Source of the DNA: Lentisphaerae bacterium GWF2_49_21 | GTDB lineage: Bacteria; Verrucomicrobiota; Lentisphaeria; Victivallales; GWF2-50-93 | Length of the DNA stretch: 64,000 nt | Reading direction: 5' to 3' | NCBI GenBank assembly: GCA_001804805.1 | Contig: MHBH01000061.1 | Span: 124,001 to 188,000 of the forward strand | Translations under genes and position numbers: made by a program | In this document: in pieces, positions 3,325 through 59,805 of the stretch | Position numbering within the stretch: the first letter of the stretch is position 1 | Layout of the letters: every line of letters begins with the position of its first letter | Notes under the pieces: model-generated | Seen by the model: only the letters and a program-made list of their open reading frames with translations | Told to the model about the DNA's origin: nothing | The model's database searches: none

Positions 3325-3457
3325 CTTTAAACAAGCTCCAGATTTAAAAATCCGAAATCCGAATTTCGAGCTACAAGTTACAATTGCCGGCCGGAGGCCA
3401 GCGCTCCTATAAAATTCCAAAACCCAGTATCAAGTTTCAAGTATCAAATTTCCAGTT

Positions 3458-5077
3458 TTACACATTTATCGTCACTCTGGCGATTTCAGATTCAAGAGTG
3501 ATTCCGGCCGCGACCTTGTCCCTGCCGTCCTCAACAAGTTTTTTCATGCCATTCTTCTTTGCGAGTTTCGCAATCATTCCACTGTCGCTGTTCTTCGATA
3601 TCGCCGAGGCGATCTCTTCATTCACCAGAAGAAGCTCGAATATCCCGGTCCTGCCCCTGAATCCGGTACCGGAGCAGTTCCTGCACTTGTTGGAGTCCTT
3701 GTCGGAGCCCTTGCCTTTGCACTTGAGGCATAATTTCCTGACAAGCCTCTGAGAGAGCACGGCCTTCAGAGATGATGATATCAGAAATCCTTCCACTCCT
3801 ATGTCGAGGAGCCTGCTTATCGCGCCGACCGCGTCGTTCGTGTGGAGAGTACTGAGCACAAGGTGCCCGGTCAGAGACGCATGTACTGCAATTTCCGCCG
3901 TATCCTTGTCGCGGATCTCTCCTACGAGTATCACGTCCGGATCCTGCCTTACGATATGACGGAGGCTGTTTGCGAAATCAAGGCCTATCTTGGGATTGAC
4001 CTGCATCTGGGAAAGCCTTTCAATCCTGTATTCTATCGGATCCTCTACGGTGATAATCTTCTTTTCACGGCTGTTGAGCTTGGACATAGCCCCGTAGAGG
4101 GTCGTAGTCTTTCCGCTTCCTGTCGGTCCGACAACCAATATTATACCGTGGGGGAGCGATATGAGCTTTTCAAACTGTTCCCGCATATCATCATTCATAC
4201 CTATGCTCTTGAGATCGATGTTCATGGAGTCCTTGCGGAGGAGTCGGAGGACTACGCTCTCCCCGTTCATAGTCGGTATGGTGCTTATTCGTACGTCCAC
4301 GTCTCCCTTGCCGATCTTCATGTTGGTACGTCCGTCCTGCGGCAGACGACGCTCCGCGATGTTCAGCCCCCCGACCAGCTTGATCCTTGAAACTATCGCA
4401 GGATACTGCGATATCGGCGTGGTAAGGAACTCCTGCAGGAGTCCATCGATCCTGAAGCGCACAATCAGCTTGTTCTCCTCCGGCTCTATGTGGATGTCGC
4501 TCGCATCCATCTCGAGCGCCCGTGAAAACATTTCGTTTACAAGCCTGACGATTGTCGCTTCGCTCGCAAGATTCCTGAGCGTCTCCTCGTTGTCATCCGA
4601 CTTCAGGAACTGGTTCGGATCATTTTCAGGCGCCAGCGGTGATTTTTCATATATGGACTGTATCTTGCGCTCCAGGATGCTTCTTCTGGCGAGGAGGAAT
4701 TTCACTCTCCTGCCGTAGAGGCTCTTTATGAAATACGACGTCTTGCCAAGCGTGTATGGTTCGCTGACAAGCATCTCCATCTCCTCGTCGTTCCACGATA
4801 TCGGGAGGCAGACGGAGTTTATGAGATAATCGGCCGATATTCCCGGGAACTGCGCTATTTCCCTGTCCCTTATCTCCTCCTCGTCCTTGGCTTCAATTCC
4901 TGAAGATTTTGAATAGATGGAAATCAGATCGGCTTCTGAAATGGCGCCCTGGTTGCAGAGATCCCAGTCAAGCTTCTTCCGGTCGGGATTCTTCTTCATC
5001 CTTTCGGGATATTCAGGATACAGGGACGAGAGCTCCCTCTCTATGGCGTCAAGGATGTTTTTAGCGTCATTTGACAT
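3458..5077 (-). CDS. gspE: GspE type II secretion ATPase
   Basis: GPTGSGKTTTLYG Walker A, VRQDPDVILVGEIRD, CxxC zinc motif CLKCKGKG..CRNCSGTGF. Confidence 0.92.
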   Translation of the reverse strand: MSNDAKNILDAIERELSSLYPEYPERMKKNPDRKKLDWDLCNQGAISEADLISIYSKSSGIEAKDEEEIRDREIAQFPGISADYLINSVCLPISWNDEEMEMLVSEPYTLGKTSYFIKSLYGRRVKFLLARRSILERKIQSIYEKSPLAPENDPNQFLKSDDNEETLRNLASEATIVRLVNEMFSRALEMDASDIHIEPEENKLIVRFRIDGLLQEFLTTPISQYPAIVSRIKLVGGLNIAERRLPQDGRTNMKIGKGDVDVRISTIPTMNGESVVLRLLRKDSMNIDLKSIGMNDDMREQFEKLISLPHGIILVVGPTGSGKTTTLYGAMSKLNSREKKIITVEDPIEYRIERLSQMQVNPKIGLDFANSLRHIVRQDPDVILVGEIRDKDTAEIAVHASLTGHLVLSTLHTNDAVGAISRLLDIGVEGFLISSSLKAVLSQRLVRKLCLKCKGKGSDKDSNKCRNCSGTGFRGRTGIFELLLVNEEIASAISKNSDSGMIAKLAKKNGMKKLVEDGRDKVAAGITLESEIARVTINV

Positions 5078-15149: not shown

Positions 15150-15249
15150 TACCGTCGTCAGCTGTCAGTCTTCGGTCGTCAGCAGATAACTCCTGACAAG
15201 TTACCAACGACAGACGACTGACGACCGGCGACTTTTTTAAGGACAAACC

Positions 15250-29065: not shown

Positions 29066-29124
29066 TAATTTCCAATCACAAATTTCCAGTTACAAGTTAC
29101 GAGTTTCCAGTATCAAGTATCAAG

Positions 29125-30192
29125 TTACAAAATATCTCTTGAACGCGGATAACTTCCCAGTATCCTGACAAACTGGCACATGTACTTGAGCTTCTTTAAA
29201 GCCTTCTGCGGAGCGGGATCCTCATGGTGCCCGTGGAAATCCAGGAAGAAATAGTATTCCCAGTTCCTCCGTTTGGACGGACGGCTCTCGATCATCGTCA
29301 GAGTCACTTTCTCGTTCTTGAACGGCAGCAGCGAATCATAGAGCGCCCCTACCCTGTCCTTTATTGCATAGCAGATGGAGGTCTTGTCATCACCGGTCGG
29401 ACGCGGTTCCTGCCATCCGAGCACTAGGAACCTTGTCGTATTGTCGGCATTGTCCTCGATGTTGTCGGCTACAATGTCGAGCTTGTAGAGTTCTGCGGCA
29501 AGCGTGCTTGAGATTGCGGCGGAATATTTCTCCTCTGCAGCGACCTTTGAAGCCTTGGTTGAGCTCGATGATTCAATTGTCTCGACTCCGGGCAGATGCT
29601 CCTGCAGCCAGCTTCTGCACTGGCCGAAGATCTGCGCGTGGCTGTAGACTTTCCGGATCTTGCTCATCGGGCATTTCGCCAGAAGGTTGTGATGGATCCT
29701 GGTATTGATCTCGGCGCATATCTTCGCGGAGGAATTCACAAGCATGTCGAGGGTATGGTTCACCGCCCCTTCGGTGGAGTTCTCGATCGGGACAACCCCG
29801 TAGTCTATGCGTTCGGTCTCCACATCATTGAAAACGTCGGATATCCCGGATTTCGGGACATACTTTGCGCAATGGCCGAACTTGCTGAGAGCCGCAAGAT
29901 GCGTGAACGAGGCTTCCGGACCGAAGAAACCGATCGTCAGAGGCTTCTCGAGTGAAATAGCCCCGGACATAACTTCCCTGTAGATGGCCCTGAGGGCCTG
30001 TGGTGACATCGGTCCTTTGTTGAGCTTTTCAAGCCTTCCGAGCAGCGCCTTCTCACGTTCGGGAACATAGATTTCGCGTGAGGTCCTTTGTTTCAGATGC
30101 CCTATCTCGATGACGTGCTTGTAGCGCTCATTTATGAGCTTGACTATCTTTTCGTCAATCTGGTCTATCTCTTTCCTGAGTTCGTTAAGCAT
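29125..30192 (-). CDS. pheA: Bifunctional chorismate mutase / prephenate dehydratase
   Basis: N-terminal LRKEIDQIDEKIVKLINERYKHVIEIGHLK; TIGFFGPEASFTHLAA; PIENSTEGAVNHTLD. Confidence 0.92.
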   Translation of the reverse strand: MLNELRKEIDQIDEKIVKLINERYKHVIEIGHLKQRTSREIYVPEREKALLGRLEKLNKGPMSPQALRAIYREVMSGAISLEKPLTIGFFGPEASFTHLAALSKFGHCAKYVPKSGISDVFNDVETERIDYGVVPIENSTEGAVNHTLDMLVNSSAKICAEINTRIHHNLLAKCPMSKIRKVYSHAQIFGQCRSWLQEHLPGVETIESSSSTKASKVAAEEKYSAAISSTLAAELYKLDIVADNIEDNADNTTRFLVLGWQEPRPTGDDKTSICYAIKDRVGALYDSLLPFKNEKVTLTMIESRPSKRRNWEYYFFLDFHGHHEDPAPQKALKKLKYMCQFVRILGSYPRSRDIL

Positions 30193-52301: not shown

Positions 52302-52360
52302 TTGACATGGAATAAATGAAGCGTACGTTATTACGGACGCATGAAAGGATTTATTCCATG
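52302..52360. promoter_or_regulatory. Candidate autoregulatory operator/promoter of the toxin-antitoxin operon
   Basis: TTGACA at 52302; 12-bp perfect IR CATGGAATAAAT (52306-52317)/ATTTATTCCATG (52349-52360), right arm includes the antitoxin ATG. Confidence 0.55.
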
Positions 52361-52600
52361 ACAACAATTACAGCGACAAACGCAAGGGCAAATCTCTATT
52401 CCCTGCTTGACGAAGCGGCGGAATCGCACATGCCCATACAGATCACTGGAAAAAGGCATTCCGGTGTCCTTATCTCTGAAGAAGACTGGAGGGCGATCCA
52501 GGAAACCTTGTATCTCAGCTCCATTCCAGGGATGAAGGAATCAATCATCAAGGGAATGAAAATACCTGTCAAGAAATGCCGCAAGGAGCTTGACTGGTGA
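52358..52600 (+). CDS. YefM/Phd-family antitoxin
   Basis: MTTITATNARANLYSLLDEAAESHMPIQITGKRHSGVLISEEDWRAIQETLYL. Confidence 0.9.
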   Translation: MTTITATNARANLYSLLDEAAESHMPIQITGKRHSGVLISEEDWRAIQETLYLSSIPGMKESIIKGMKIPVKKCRKELDW

Positions 52601-52860
52601 GTTGGAAACTGATTTATACGAACCAATCTCAGAAAGACGCCAAAAAACTTTCATATTCGGGATTACGCCCAAAAGCGGAACACATTCTTGAAATTTTGGA
52701 GATGAATCCCTTTCAAAAACCACCTCCCTATGAAAAACTGGTCGGGGATCTGTCCGGAGCATATTCAAGGCGGATCAACATAAAGCACAGGATCGTCTAT
52801 CAGGTCCTTGTGGAAACAAAGACCGTGAAAGTCATCCGCATGTGGACGCATTACGAGTGA
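52597..52860 (+). CDS. YoeB-family toxin (mRNA interferase)
   Basis: GTG start overlapping the antitoxin stop; KLIYTNQSQKDAKKL...NPFQKPPPYEKLVGDLSGAYSRRINIKHRIVYQV...VIRMWTHYE. Confidence 0.92.
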   Translation: MSWKLIYTNQSQKDAKKLSYSGLRPKAEHILEILEMNPFQKPPPYEKLVGDLSGAYSRRINIKHRIVYQVLVETKTVKVIRMWTHYE

Positions 52861-52885
52861 TAAATTTCCCATCCGGGAAATTTAT
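52860..52885. terminator. Hairpin between convergent toxin and fic stop codons
   Basis: ATAAATTTCCC-ATCC-GGGAAATTTAT, perfect 11-bp stem. Confidence 0.6.
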
Positions 52886-53973
52886 TGTTTCGAGAGCAAT
52901 TTCACGAGTTCGGTGTTGAGATAGACGGTCTCCTTGCCGCACTTCTGGGATTTCAGGACGCCTATCTCCTCGAGATCCTTGAGATATTTCGAGGCGGTCT
53001 GGCGGACGGCGATATCCTTGCTGACAAGGGATTCTATTTTAGTGTAAGGTTTTTCAAAGAGCGTCTCGACGAGTTCTTTGGAGTAGATGACGGGAAGTTC
53101 CTGTTTAACTTTCTCGCACGTGACATCCATAAGTTGCCTGATCTCGACAATACGGTCGATCGTCTGGAGCGCGGTCTCTTCGACTCCCTGCAGCATGTAG
53201 AGCACCCAGCTTTCCCAGTCGTTCTTCTCGGTTATGCCCCTCAGCAATAAATAGTATGCCGCCTTCTTCCTGATGATGTAGCTGCTCAGGTAGAGCACGG
53301 GAAGGTCAAGGAGTCCCTTGCTTGCGAGATAAAGGACATTGATTATCCTTCCCGTCCTGCCGTTGCCGTCGAAGAACGGGTGTATCGCCTCGAACTGGTA
53401 ATGAGCAATCGCCATTTTGACCAGGGGATCAAAATCGCAGAACGCCTCGTCATTCAAAAACGTTTCGAGATTCTTGAGTTTCTCCCGGATGAGATGCTCC
53501 CCGTCAGGCGGTGTATATACGACTTCCCCAGTTTTCCTGCTCTGGACCTTTGTCCCTGGTTCGTTCCTTATTGCGGTATCAGACTCTTTGAGTTGCTGGG
53601 CGATCTTTATGAAAAGAGCTGTTGTGAACTTCTTAGTCTCCTGAAGCTCGGTATGTGCCGCCCATAGGGCTTCACGGTAGCTCAATACTTCTTTCGTGGC
53701 CGGATCGGTGTTCTTCATACTGGCGGAAAAAGCTCTGAAAAGATTGTCGCTGGTCGTAAAGACATTCTCGATCTCCGAACTATCCTTGGCTTCCTGAAGG
53801 GTGATGTTGTTGATGAGGATGTCCTGGTTCGGGATGATGAGGGCCTTGCCGTTGAGTTCAGCAAGAGCCGCCCGGGATTTTATGACCTGCTTGAGTATGG
53901 TCCTTGACTCTATTTCCGCCTTGGGTGGAAGCAGAGGCAGTTCGTTGTATGGTTTTTGTGGATTAAAGGACAT
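52882..53973 (-). CDS. Fic-domain protein
   Basis: Fic motif HPFFDGNGRTGR; possible N-terminal inhibitory motif SSEIEN; start MSFNPQKPYNELPLLPP. Confidence 0.9.
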   Translation of the reverse strand: MSFNPQKPYNELPLLPPKAEIESRTILKQVIKSRAALAELNGKALIIPNQDILINNITLQEAKDSSEIENVFTTSDNLFRAFSASMKNTDPATKEVLSYREALWAAHTELQETKKFTTALFIKIAQQLKESDTAIRNEPGTKVQSRKTGEVVYTPPDGEHLIREKLKNLETFLNDEAFCDFDPLVKMAIAHYQFEAIHPFFDGNGRTGRIINVLYLASKGLLDLPVLYLSSYIIRKKAAYYLLLRGITEKNDWESWVLYMLQGVEETALQTIDRIVEIRQLMDVTCEKVKQELPVIYSKELVETLFEKPYTKIESLVSKDIAVRQTASKYLKDLEEIGVLKSQKCGKETVYLNTELVKLLSKQ

Positions 53974-54001: not shown

Positions 54002-54110
54002 TTAATTATTTTTACCCTCGTGACACGGTGACTTCGTGACACCGGGCATCATTCCTCCAATTCGGAGTCACCGCGGCACGAAGTCAACCGTTTTCCGTCA
54101 TCTGCCGGAT
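54002..54110. repeat. ~100-bp repeat J, left copy
   Basis: CGTGACACGGTGACTTCGTGACACCGGGC...CCAATTCGGAGTCACCGCGGCACGAAGTCAACCGTTTTCCG; near-copy at 54909-55013. Confidence 0.8.
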
Positions 54111-54815
54111 ACCTTTGCATTGGGGGTAATTGCCGCAGCCCCAGAAGAAACCCTTGGCCGACTGTCTGCGTTTCATCGGAGTACCGCAATCAGGGCAGCC
54201 CGGAGTATCGGGTTCAATTCGTGCCTCCATACGGGCACTGAACATCTTCTCTTTGATACCACCCTGCGCAACGAACGCCCGCTCAAGCTGCTCCAATTGT
54301 CGTCCCAGCAGTCCTGTCGTCCGTTGGATCAATACGATCAGGGCATTGGCCGCAGTAAGGTCGTCACGGCCCTCCAACCAGGGATCGAATTTCTTCTTCT
54401 CCGCAAGCAGGAAAGTCCAGTAATCATGCAGAAGGTCATCCGTATAGGCGAACTCACCCAGCATGATGGCCATGATTGCCCGATAATCCGGCTCGTGGAT
54501 ACTCCAGGGAATGCTGCCTTTCTGAATGAGGTAATCTTCAAGATCGCCCTGCAGCTCGCTCAGGCTGGCCTTTGCAACATCAGTCAGCTTGATTTCGGTT
54601 TCGGAAGAGGTTTTTGCACGTTCGGAGCCCTCAATGATGTTCTGCTTGCCGGATCTGGAAGCGCCAATCATCTGACCAAGAGTCTTACCCAGCGGATCAT
54701 TCTTCCAGGTGATATAGCGTTTGCAGAAACTGATCGTGCCAAGGTGAATGATCGTGGCAAAATTGAACGCATGCAGTCGCCGATAACCACCGCTGTGATT
54801 GTATATCCGGCTCAT
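54084..54815 (-). CDS. Four-helix-bundle protein with topoisomerase-like C4 zinc ribbon
   Basis: GKTLGQMIGASRSGKQNIIEGSERAKTSSETEIKLTDVAKASLSELQGDLEDYL; CPDCGTPMKRRQSAKGFFWGCGNYPQCKG. Confidence 0.8.
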   Translation of the reverse strand: MSRIYNHSGGYRRLHAFNFATIIHLGTISFCKRYITWKNDPLGKTLGQMIGASRSGKQNIIEGSERAKTSSETEIKLTDVAKASLSELQGDLEDYLIQKGSIPWSIHEPDYRAIMAIMLGEFAYTDDLLHDYWTFLLAEKKKFDPWLEGRDDLTAANALIVLIQRTTGLLGRQLEQLERAFVAQGGIKEKMFSARMEARIEPDTPGCPDCGTPMKRRQSAKGFFWGCGNYPQCKGIRQMTENG

Positions 54816-54908
54816 CTATCTTCCTTTCACTATAGATATTTTCTCCATGGTTGCCCCTTTTGGATAATATAACAGTTTCTTCTTCTCCAGCATAGCACCG
54901 CTTTCTTT

Positions 54909-55013
54909 TTAATTTTGTATTTCGTGACACGGTGACTTAGTGACGTCGGGCGTCGTTCTTCCAATTCGGCGTCACCGCGTCACGAACTCAGCCGTTTTCC
55001 GCATCTGCAGGAT
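54909..55013. repeat. ~100-bp repeat J, right copy
   Basis: CGTGACACGGTGACTTAGTGACGTCGGGC...CCAATTCGGCGTCACCGCGTCACGAACTCAGCCGTTTTCCG. Confidence 0.8.
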
Positions 55014-55144
55014 CCATGAAACTGGCTTGCAGGGCTTTTATGGGCTATATTACTGTCTTTAACCATAACTAATCAAGGATATCCGGTCAATCCTGCCTGC
55101 CTCGCCGTAGTCAGATGAAGGCGGGTTATCCTGTCAGAAAAATT

Positions 55145-55774: not shown

Positions 55775-55938
55775 TCCGCCGTCGCTGAGAAGCTATGGCG
55801 GACAAGCAGAACACGCAGAGAAAGATTGACCACGAAACACACGAATGACACGAAAAAGATAATTGTTAAGTTTTTGCTGCGCAAAAAATTAACAATTGAT
55901 TGACGAATAAAATCATGTAAATCCTGTTATCCTGTCAA
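55775..55938. repeat. Repeat island of families A, C, I and B
   Basis: A 55775-55804, C 55829-55858 (ACCACGAAACACACGAATGACACGAAA), I 55861-55897 (AATTGTTAAGTTTTTGC-TGC-GCAAAAAATTAACAATT), B 55915-55938 (GTAAATCCTGTTATCCTGTC). Confidence 0.75.
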
Positions 55939-55951
55939 AAATGAGGAAAAT

Positions 55952-57759: not shown

Positions 57760-59805
57760 ATGAGAAAGAGTCTTTTGGGAATCTTGTTTGGAGCCGCTTT
57801 GCTGGCGTTGAACTGTCTTGCCGCAGAAGAGGCTGCGGCGCCGGCGGAACTGAAGGTCCATACGATGTTCTCTAACAACATGGTGCTCCAGAGGGGCATT
57901 CCCGTAAAGATATGGGGCGTGGCGAAGCCGGGTTCGGAAGTGACCGTCAAGTTCGCTTCACAGGAAAAGAAGGCGAAGGCAGATGACAAGGGCAACTGGA
58001 TGGCGACTCTGGACACAATGAAGGAAAATTCCACCCCTGCCGTTCTCGAGGTCTCTTCAGAAATCGAAAATCGAAAATCGAAATTTGAAAATGTCCTCGT
58101 CGGCGACGTCTGGATCTGTTCCGGACAGTCGAACATGGAATTTGTCGTAAACAGCTCCATCAACTCACAGCAGGAGATAGCGGAGGCGAAATATCCTGAG
58201 ATCAGGCTTTTCACCGTAGCCAAGAAACCTGTCGGCGAGCCGATTAAGACACTCAACGGGGAATGGAAGGTATGCGCGCCGGAGACGGTAGGCAACTTCT
58301 CGGCGGTGGGATATTTCTTTGGACGTGATCTGAACAAGGATCTTAAGATTCCGATCGGCCTGATTAACACGTCCTGGGGTGGCACGCCTGCTGAAACTTG
58401 GACGACCTTTAAGACTCTTGAGAGTGATCCCGACTTTTCCGCGATGATCGAAAGGTATAAGGCCGCCCTTTCAAGTGATGCGATGGAAAACTACAAGAAG
58501 GCGCTGGCCGACTGGGAAAAGGAAAAAGGTTCCCGCAAGGAAGATGACAGGATAAAGGATCCCGGCAACAAAGGATTCGAACAGGGATGGGCGAAGTCTG
58601 ACTTCAATGATTCCGACTGGAAGACGATGAAGCTTCCGTGCATGTGGGAGTCGCAGGGCATGAACATAGACGGCGCTGTATGGTTCAGGAAGAACGTTGA
58701 AATTCCTGAAAAACTCGCAGGCAAGGATCTTACGATCACCCTCGGTTCCATCGATGATTTCGATGTGACTTATTTCAATGGCACCCAGATTGGAACAACT
58801 GGGGAGGACACTCCTAATTTCTGGTCGTTCCCGCGCAAATACACAATTCCCGCAAATCTCGTGAAGTCCGGCAAAAACTGTCTTGCGGTAAGGGCATTCG
58901 ACCATTTCGGCGGCGGCGGATTCGGCGGACAGGCCAAGGACATGAGGATAATTCTTGGAGAAGAGAACGTAGACATATCAGGAGAATGGAAATACAAGGT
59001 CGAATATTCCGTCGTGTCGAGCATGAGGCCGCAGGCTCCAATGGGGCCGAACAATCCGAATGCCCCCGCGACTCTCTTCAACGGCATGATAAACCCAGTT
59101 ATCCCTTACACCATCAAAGGTGCGATCTGGTACCAGGGATGTTCCAATGCCGGGCGTGCATACCAGTACAGGAAGCTTCTTCCTGCGATGATCAACGACT
59201 GGCGGAAGGAATGGGCCCAGCCCGAACCTGGAAAGGATTTTCCGTTCTTCATCGTCCAGCTTGCGAACTTCATGGCTCCAGCCACCAAGCCTGAGGATTC
59301 GGCATGGGCCGAGCTCCGTGAGGCGCAGGCAATGACCGCATCTGGCTTAAAAAACTGCGGGCTCGCACTTGCGATCGACATCGGCGATGCGAAGGACATA
59401 CATCCTAAGAACAAGCAGGATGTCGGCAAACGCCTCGAACTTGCCGCACTGAAAGTCGCCTATGGCAAGGACATCGTATTCTCCGGCCCGACATATGATT
59501 CCATGAAGGTCGACGGGGATAAGATCGTACTCAGCTTCAAGAATGTCGGAGGCGGCCTTATTGCCAAGGATGGGGATCTCAAGCACTTCTCAATTGCTGG
59601 CGACGATAAGGCTTTTGTCTGGGCAAAGGCCAAGATCGATGGTGACAAGATCATCGTTTCGAGCGATGACATGAAGAAGCCTGTAGCCGTCAGGTATGCC
59701 TGGGCGAACAATCCCGAAGGATGCAACCTTTATAACAAGGAGGGATTGCCTGCGGTTCCGTTCCGGACCGACACCTGGGATGGAGTGACAATCAACAACC
59801 GCTGA
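57760..59805 (+). CDS. Sialate O-acetylesterase-like (SGNH/DUF303) secreted protein
   Basis: HTMFSNNMVLQRGIPVKIWGVAKPGSEV, VGDVWICSGQSNMEF, GLINTSWGGTPAETW, GAIWYQGCSNAGRAYQYRKLLPAMINDWRKEW. Confidence 0.88.
   Translation: MRKSLLGILFGAALLALNCLAAEEAAAPAELKVHTMFSNNMVLQRGIPVKIWGVAKPGSEVTVKFASQEKKAKADDKGNWMATLDTMKENSTPAVLEVSSEIENRKSKFENVLVGDVWICSGQSNMEFVVNSSINSQQEIAEAKYPEIRLFTVAKKPVGEPIKTLNGEWKVCAPETVGNFSAVGYFFGRDLNKDLKIPIGLINTSWGGTPAETWTTFKTLESDPDFSAMIERYKAALSSDAMENYKKALADWEKEKGSRKEDDRIKDPGNKGFEQGWAKSDFNDSDWKTMKLPCMWESQGMNIDGAVWFRKNVEIPEKLAGKDLTITLGSIDDFDVTYFNGTQIGTTGEDTPNFWSFPRKYTIPANLVKSGKNCLAVRAFDHFGGGGFGGQAKDMRIILGEENVDISGEWKYKVEYSVVSSMRPQAPMGPNNPNAPATLFNGMINPVIPYTIKGAIWYQGCSNAGRAYQYRKLLPAMINDWRKEWAQPEPGKDFPFFIVQLANFMAPATKPEDSAWAELREAQAMTASGLKNCGLALAIDIGDAKDIHPKNKQDVGKRLELAALKVAYGKDIVFSGPTYDSMKVDGDKIVLSFKNVGGGLIAKDGDLKHFSIAGDDKAFVWAKAKIDGDKIIVSSDDMKKPVAVRYAWANNPEGCNLYNKEGLPAVPFRTDTWDGVTINNR

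Follow-up and report, generated by a model that had tools for sequence, protein, structure and literature searches.

A four-helix-bundle gene between hairpin-forming repeats: apparent member of a widespread and previously undescribed class of jumping units in bacteria

Introduction

Between fic and gmk in the genome of Lentisphaerae bacterium GWF2_49_21 lies a gene for a four-helix-bundle protein enclosed by two direct repeats, one of which takes in the end of the gene itself. This arrangement raises the question of what kind of unit the gene and its repeats form, and how they came to stand together. A sequence-only reading of the locus had proposed a non-autonomous mobile unit with a cargo protein, related to the proteins of intervening sequences (IVSs) in 23S rRNA. 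Both the function of these IVP/S23 four-helix proteins and the origin of the rRNA IVSs are described as unclear in the open-access literature. Here we report on the locus within its window, the whole stretch of 64,000 nucleotides that was analysed, and on loci of the same protein family and its sister family in many bacterial phyla. The window element appears to be a member of a widespread class of bacterial jumping units, so far undescribed, which is related to the inserts of rRNA genes.

Results

The protein encoded at the window locus scores 59.8 bits against the TIGR04258 'four helix bundle suffix' profile, for which the cut-off is 40, and also matches the Topo-I zinc ribbon of PF01396, in agreement with the domain make-up first read from the sequence (Table 1). 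An AlphaFold2 model has a mean pLDDT of 94.3, and the closest solved structure is the IVP-type protein XCC0516 (2gsc), which comes first both by structure (Foldseek) and by profile; this match has a TM score, by target length, of 0.76 and a weak Foldseek E-value of 0.12, and the profile match to the IVP/S23 superfamily has an E-value of 0.015. Many TIGR04258 genes also give TIGR02436 matches, which fall around the conserved RSGxxN..EG motif, the published IVP motif (PMC3936711). The predicted fold, that of XCC0516 and BT_0352, together with the IVP motif region places the window protein in the IVP/S23 four-helix superfamily, and the proposed kinship to the proteins of 23S rRNA IVSs holds. The protein has no recognised catalytic domain. 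In homologous gene pairs dN/dS is 0.05-0.11, and the protein is therefore under purifying selection. The source genome has six TIGR04258 matches, and at least one is present in 34 of 60 relatives. Directly adjoining the window element are a probable YefM/YoeB-type toxin-antitoxin pair (52316-52860) and a SoFic-like Fic gene (52882-53973).

Table 1. Features of the window element and its right border (window positions)
Feature	Position	Strand	Basis or remark
Left repeat copy: hairpin and last codons of the window gene	54018..54110		self-BLAST, folding
Period-8 array (GTGAC-NNN x3), 5' arm of left hairpin	54020..54043	+	
Inverted arm of left hairpin (GTCACCGCGGCACGAAGTCA)	54067..54086	+	
Four-helix-bundle protein gene, 243 aa	54084..54815	-	IVP-type four-helix domain, TIGR04258 suffix domain and Topo-I-type C4 zinc ribbon
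C4 zinc ribbon (residues 207-239)	54099..54197	-	PF01396, 39.3 bits
TIGR04258 suffix domain (residues 154-199)	54219..54356	-	profile match
Right repeat copy: same hairpin and 1-nt-shifted remnant of the gene's C-terminal codons	54922..55013		self-BLAST
Period-8 array (GTGAC-NNN x3), arm of right hairpin	54924..54947	+	
Inverted arm of right hairpin (GTCAC at 54971 and 54979)	54971..54990	+	
Conserved sequence upstream of gmk, right bound of element; probable gmk promoter	55020..55060	+	read by eye

Self-BLAST aligns the two repeat copies with 87% identity over 93 nt (E 3e-25). The left copy holds the end of the gene (...IRQMTENG*, with the stop codon at 54084-54086); this tail recurs in the right copy, where 1 nt is deleted, as the sequence-only reading had described. 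Both copies are predicted to fold into RNA hairpins, another of its claims, with z-scores against shuffled sequences of -1.9 to -3.6 depending on the strand. The pentamer GTGAC recurs exactly every 8 nt at 54020, 54028 and 54036 on the left and at 54924, 54932 and 54940 on the right, followed by inverted GTCAC at 54067 on the left and at 54971 and 54979 on the right. With up to three mismatches allowed, two matches to the motif GTGACACGGTGACTTCGTGAC are present in the window, both in the repeat pair, as against an expectation of 0 from 100 shuffles. A repeat spread widely and independently of four-helix genes would have spoken against the proposed mobile unit; in the whole 5.9-Mb genome this repeat (repeat J) has two copies above chance, both flanking the window gene. 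The expectation that it would also flank other four-helix genes failed, because the repeat dialect differs from element to element. Since the duplicated stretch consists of a hairpin and a four-helix gene tail, an earlier copy of the element was probably once present at this site and has mostly been lost.

We looked for such repeats at other loci as degenerate tandem arrays, detected by self-match at a fixed lag; the detector is home-made, its thresholds were not tuned on independent data, and related loci within the order make the rows of the array statistics not fully independent. At 45 of 58 TIGR04258 loci in the same order at least one array lies in or near the gene, with lags of 9 (55) and 10 (20), and 103 kb of background loci held 8 arrays, one of lag 9 and none of lag 10. 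Across many phyla, among them Chloroflexi, Acidobacteria, Planctomycetota, Bacteroidota, Nitrospirae, Desulfobacterota and Gammaproteobacteria, 39 of 80 TIGR04258 loci carry arrays, and the period is 9 in 57 of the 63 arrays; at the detector threshold, arrays are missing from about half of these loci and from a fifth of the loci in the order. The sister family TIGR02436, which lacks the suffix domain, has arrays at 20 of 30 loci in the same order and at all 23 in other phyla, mostly of period 7 and less often of period 8. Because arrays lie mostly between genes, their density was recounted per intergenic base: arrays of period 9 and 10 number 2.36 per intergenic kb near TIGR04258 genes versus 0.062 far from them (about 38-fold), and those of period 7 and 8 number 5.5 near TIGR02436 genes versus 0.79 far from them (about 7-fold) and 0.27 in the background. 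We found no published report of this association of four-helix genes with arrays in the open-access literature.

Period-7 solo arrays, with no four-helix gene beside them, are fairly common. The window itself contains degenerate ones at 1974-2006, 3348-3383, 3412-3458, 15207-15232, 29067-29130 and 58061-58090, the last within a long ORF (57760-59805), and these resemble the arrays beside TIGR02436 genes. Two further short-period sequences, CCACGAAACACACGAATGACACGAAAA (55833-55866) and ATCCTGTTATCCTGTC (55926-55941), lie downstream of gmk, where the four-helix gene is absent, and similar sequences are found at the corresponding place downstream of gmk in a congener (L092).

The arrays have a characteristic placement. 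Many lie within 100 bp upstream of the gene and others directly after its stop codon; those of TIGR04258 stand at the element ends or in an internal linker, and in some genes this is the coding linker by which the suffix domain is joined to the four-helix domain. The reverse complement of the best array occurs near the gene in 77% of elements, versus 24% in a reversed-only control. Upstream and downstream flanks match each other in inverted orientation in 35 of 53 TIGR02436 elements and in direct orientation in 26 of 132 TIGR04258 elements, as against 0.24% and 0.19%, respectively, when flanks of different elements are paired. At L111, L165, L120, L168 and L035 a whole hairpin lies within the direct repeat, as in the window. 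A unit made of a core and a spacer is supported for period 9, where the two weakest phases are adjacent in 23 of 54 cases (25% by chance), and is not significant for period 7.

Array and protein vary together. Array sequence differs between elements even inside one genome, and elements with similar proteins in different phyla have a common array sequence; the share of common 6-mers is 0.02 for proteins 30-40% identical and climbs to 0.28 for those with more than 70% identity, and over cross-set pairs the correlation with protein identity is r=0.50, with a permutation maximum of 0.28 (2000 permutations). The period likewise follows the subfamily, being 9 or 10 nt in TIGR04258 and mostly 7, sometimes 8, in TIGR02436. 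On a protein tree it changes 13 times versus 33.9 with shuffled labels (0 of 200 shuffles as low), a result that is strong rather than exact, since the tree was made quickly and tests of this kind are inflated by related rows. A sister element in the source genome has the dialect GTCNGAC, which is found there at that element's two flanks and at one solo site only; the solo site (L193, C77:95893) is a period-9 array between two unrelated genes, with no four-helix gene.

The generic signature of a mobile element, a filled against an empty site with a target duplication, is found in this family at two places. In genome G058 a TIGR02436 element (L241) stands between two exact 40-bp copies of AGAGATGAGAGATGAGAGATGAGAGATGAGATAAAAAACG, the added unit being 378 bp long and lying in a heptamer array, and a paralogous locus of the same genome (L303) is similar on both sides, has AGAGATGAGAGATGAGAGATGAGAGATGAGATAAAAAACG once and has no four-helix gene; this exact case concerns a TIGR02436 element, which is not a close relative of the window gene. 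The second place is the 3' end of gloA, a hot spot in one genus, where a four-helix gene directly follows gloA in four genomes (truncated in one) and a RhuM-like gene does so in four others. In G043 and G067 the four-helix gene is followed by a copy of the gloA tail, which in G067 encodes the host's own gloA ending; the tail copies have diverged, and the insertions may share ancestry. More generally, four-helix genes that are 84-88% identical between genomes lose their DNA similarity close to the ORF ends. The pair L018/L077 is conserved vertically, and pairs of this kind indicate that not all copies move often.

Several further arrangements were seen at these sites. In G043 (L067) a RhuM-like gene stands in tandem with two four-helix genes, with a gloA tail copy behind each, and a CRISPR-like array with repeats of ~36 nt lies just downstream. 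In three genomes (L202, L203 and L219) gloA breaks off after about codon 113, and an identical foreign sequence, GGCTGTGYTGCCTAAACGAATA, takes over; we read this as an insertion or recombination of a further kind at this hot spot. At L157 a 66-bp direct repeat around a four-helix gene resembles the 3' end of a host coding sequence, a possible further case of gene-tail duplication.

For the window copy the evidence is presence and absence at the fic-gmk interval, with an approximate insertion boundary: in two congeners fic adjoins gmk and the four-helix gene is absent, and the sequence upstream of gmk resembles that of a congener (L091) from about 55020 in a by-eye reading of the two sequences rather than a computed alignment.

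The element-carrying draft genomes G043, G045, G056, G057 and G058 gave no detectable reverse transcriptase (RT) or Y1 transposase; drafts do not make such an absence absolute, and G058, home of the exact filled and empty pair, is 97% complete. Over 60 genomes RT and element were not associated (18 with both, 16 with the element only, 11 with RT only and 15 with neither), and the four RT matches of the source genome are all on contigs other than that of the window. On this evidence we rejected an RT acting in trans, and we rejected a Y1 transposase in trans on its absence from the matches in carriers such as G043 and G058. A scan of element loci gave no match to rRNA probes, and insertion in rRNA was set aside for these loci. 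Carriage by phages or plasmids was also rejected, as the elements were found in 0 phage records, 1 plasmid (Prevotella) and 1 viral contig.

Discussion

Our analysis suggests that the element in the window is a member of a broad family of bacterial mobile elements of small size, some 0.4-1 kb, each with a single IVP/Avd-like four-helix gene (TIGR04258 or its sister TIGR02436) bordered by hairpin-forming short-period arrays, and we regard this as the probable explanation of the locus. It builds on direct observations: the association of gene and array, the dependence of array period and sequence on the subfamily, the inverted or hairpin geometry, the scarcity of the window's repeat dialect in the rest of its genome, the very wide taxonomic spread of similar proteins, the purifying selection, and the filled and empty sites with target duplication. 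The earlier proposal of a mobile unit with a cargo protein is supported in its first part by the behaviour of the element, which is that of a small mobile unit; its gene fits the description of a hallmark gene with cognate repeats better than that of cargo.

From these data we propose a model for the movement of the element. The four-helix protein, probably as an oligomer, would recognise the hairpin array as RNA or single-stranded DNA by reading its units of 7-10 nt, and would steer insertion into or beside hairpin arrays. Where an arm or a whole hairpin is duplicated in the process, direct flanking repeats such as those of the window would result, and landing in a hairpin loop would leave the arrays as terminal inverted repeats. 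Cutting and joining of the strands would fall to a trans-acting or host enzyme, which we infer because RT and Y1 transposase were undetected in several carrier genomes.

For the window alone, the repeats could instead be what is left after the gene and its 3' hairpin were duplicated in tandem and one of the copies was largely deleted, with no mobility at all. The upstream repeat does contain a four-helix gene tail in the same order as the downstream copy, and tandem gene copies are known elsewhere (L067). We nevertheless consider this unlikely as a full account, as it leaves unexplained both the cognate arrays found family-wide and the absence of the gene from the fic-gmk interval of two congeners; such a duplication could have happened in the window as one episode in the history of a mobile element.

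Similarly unlikely, in our judgement, is an element that acts at the level of RNA, in which RNase III would excise the unit from transcripts at its hairpins, as in the ORF-bearing 23S rRNA IVSs, so that insertion does no harm, and the unit would spread by reverse transcription in trans. The homology to IVP proteins fits this account, as do the terminal inverted arrays around the ORF, which recall the stem of the Coxiella IVS (PMC4990558), and the role of the related protein Avd as partner of the RTs of diversity-generating retroelements (DGRs) (PMC10053308). Against it stand the distribution of RT, undetected in several carriers and unassociated with the element, and the probe scan, which found no array element in rRNA.

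We also weighed the possibility that the arrays are operators through which the four-helix protein regulates itself, in the manner of ParR, which binds repeats surrounding the promoter of its own gene, and that gene and operator spread passively by horizontal transfer. The cognate relation of array and protein, the dependence on period, the strong purifying selection and the frequent position of arrays within 100 bp upstream of the gene would all be expected of an operator. We find it improbable all the same, for arrays are also found within the coding linker and immediately behind the stop codon, where those of TIGR02436 mostly run inverted to their upstream counterpart, and neither the filled and empty pair with its exact 40-bp duplication nor the loss of DNA similarity near the ORF follows from self-regulation. 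That the arrays are mere low-complexity noise gathering in intergenic DNA, as the solo period-7 arrays in the window and in far intergenic DNA might suggest, is hardly credible and already contradicted by the 7- to 38-fold enrichment after intergenic normalisation, the subfamily periods, the cognate sequences and the inverted geometry.

Returning to the mobile elements with cognate arrays, we tentatively extend the proposal, with somewhat more reserve than hope, to a mobile class that crosses phyla without a transposase or RT of its own, in which an IVP-type protein recognises hairpin arrays whose period (7/8 or 9/10 nt) is specific to the subfamily and guides host enzymes in inserting the element into such arrays; the 23S rRNA IVSs, as well as the heptamer and nonamer arrays scattered through many bacterial genomes, would then belong to this class as further forms or remnants. 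If true, this would mean a further class of transposition, one that works without any recognised transposase. A cognate code between protein and array, with a period set by the subfamily, makes the function of IVP proteins, the origin of the IVSs and the spread of heptamer arrays testable at the bench.

Of the known systems, the 23S rRNA IVSs with IVP/S23p genes are comparable in being small selfish units with one four-helix gene of the IVP superfamily and stem-forming ends. In the ORF-bearing IVS of Coxiella the gene lies inside the stem formed by the element's ends, and an origin by transposition was proposed, not shown (PMC4990558); IVP genes also occur at scattered rRNA sites in CPR bacteria (PMC11270868). 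The elements described here differ in lying outside rRNA, in the way array sequence and period follow the protein subfamily, in inserting at gene ends and in pre-existing arrays with a long target duplication, and in having a suffix domain and, in some copies, a zinc ribbon.

TAACTGA heptamer arrays of Beggiatoaceae, Cyanobacteria and Bacteroidetes are intergenic and patchily distributed, and their author suggests horizontal transfer with no evident mechanism (PMC4679880). They share with the arrays of our elements the intergenic position, the period of 7 and the patchy distribution, but no link to four-helix genes was reported for them; the 12 genomes that we scanned for TAACTGA arrays had none.

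REPIN/REP sequences with their RAYT genes (PMC3116915) offer another parallel, with a lone gene, flanking hairpin repeats that co-vary with the protein, and solo repeats elsewhere; the four-helix gene, however, does not code for a Y1 transposase or for any recognised catalytic domain, its repeats are periodic arrays of 7-10 nt, and Y1 is undetected in several carrier genomes. Avd of the DGRs (PF05635-like; PMC10053308) is a four-helix bundle of the same superfamily, but RT and template and variable repeats are absent beside the window gene. The features compared set the window element apart from rRNA IVSs, RAYT systems and DGRs, and we file it as a variant, itself new, of the IVP-element kind.
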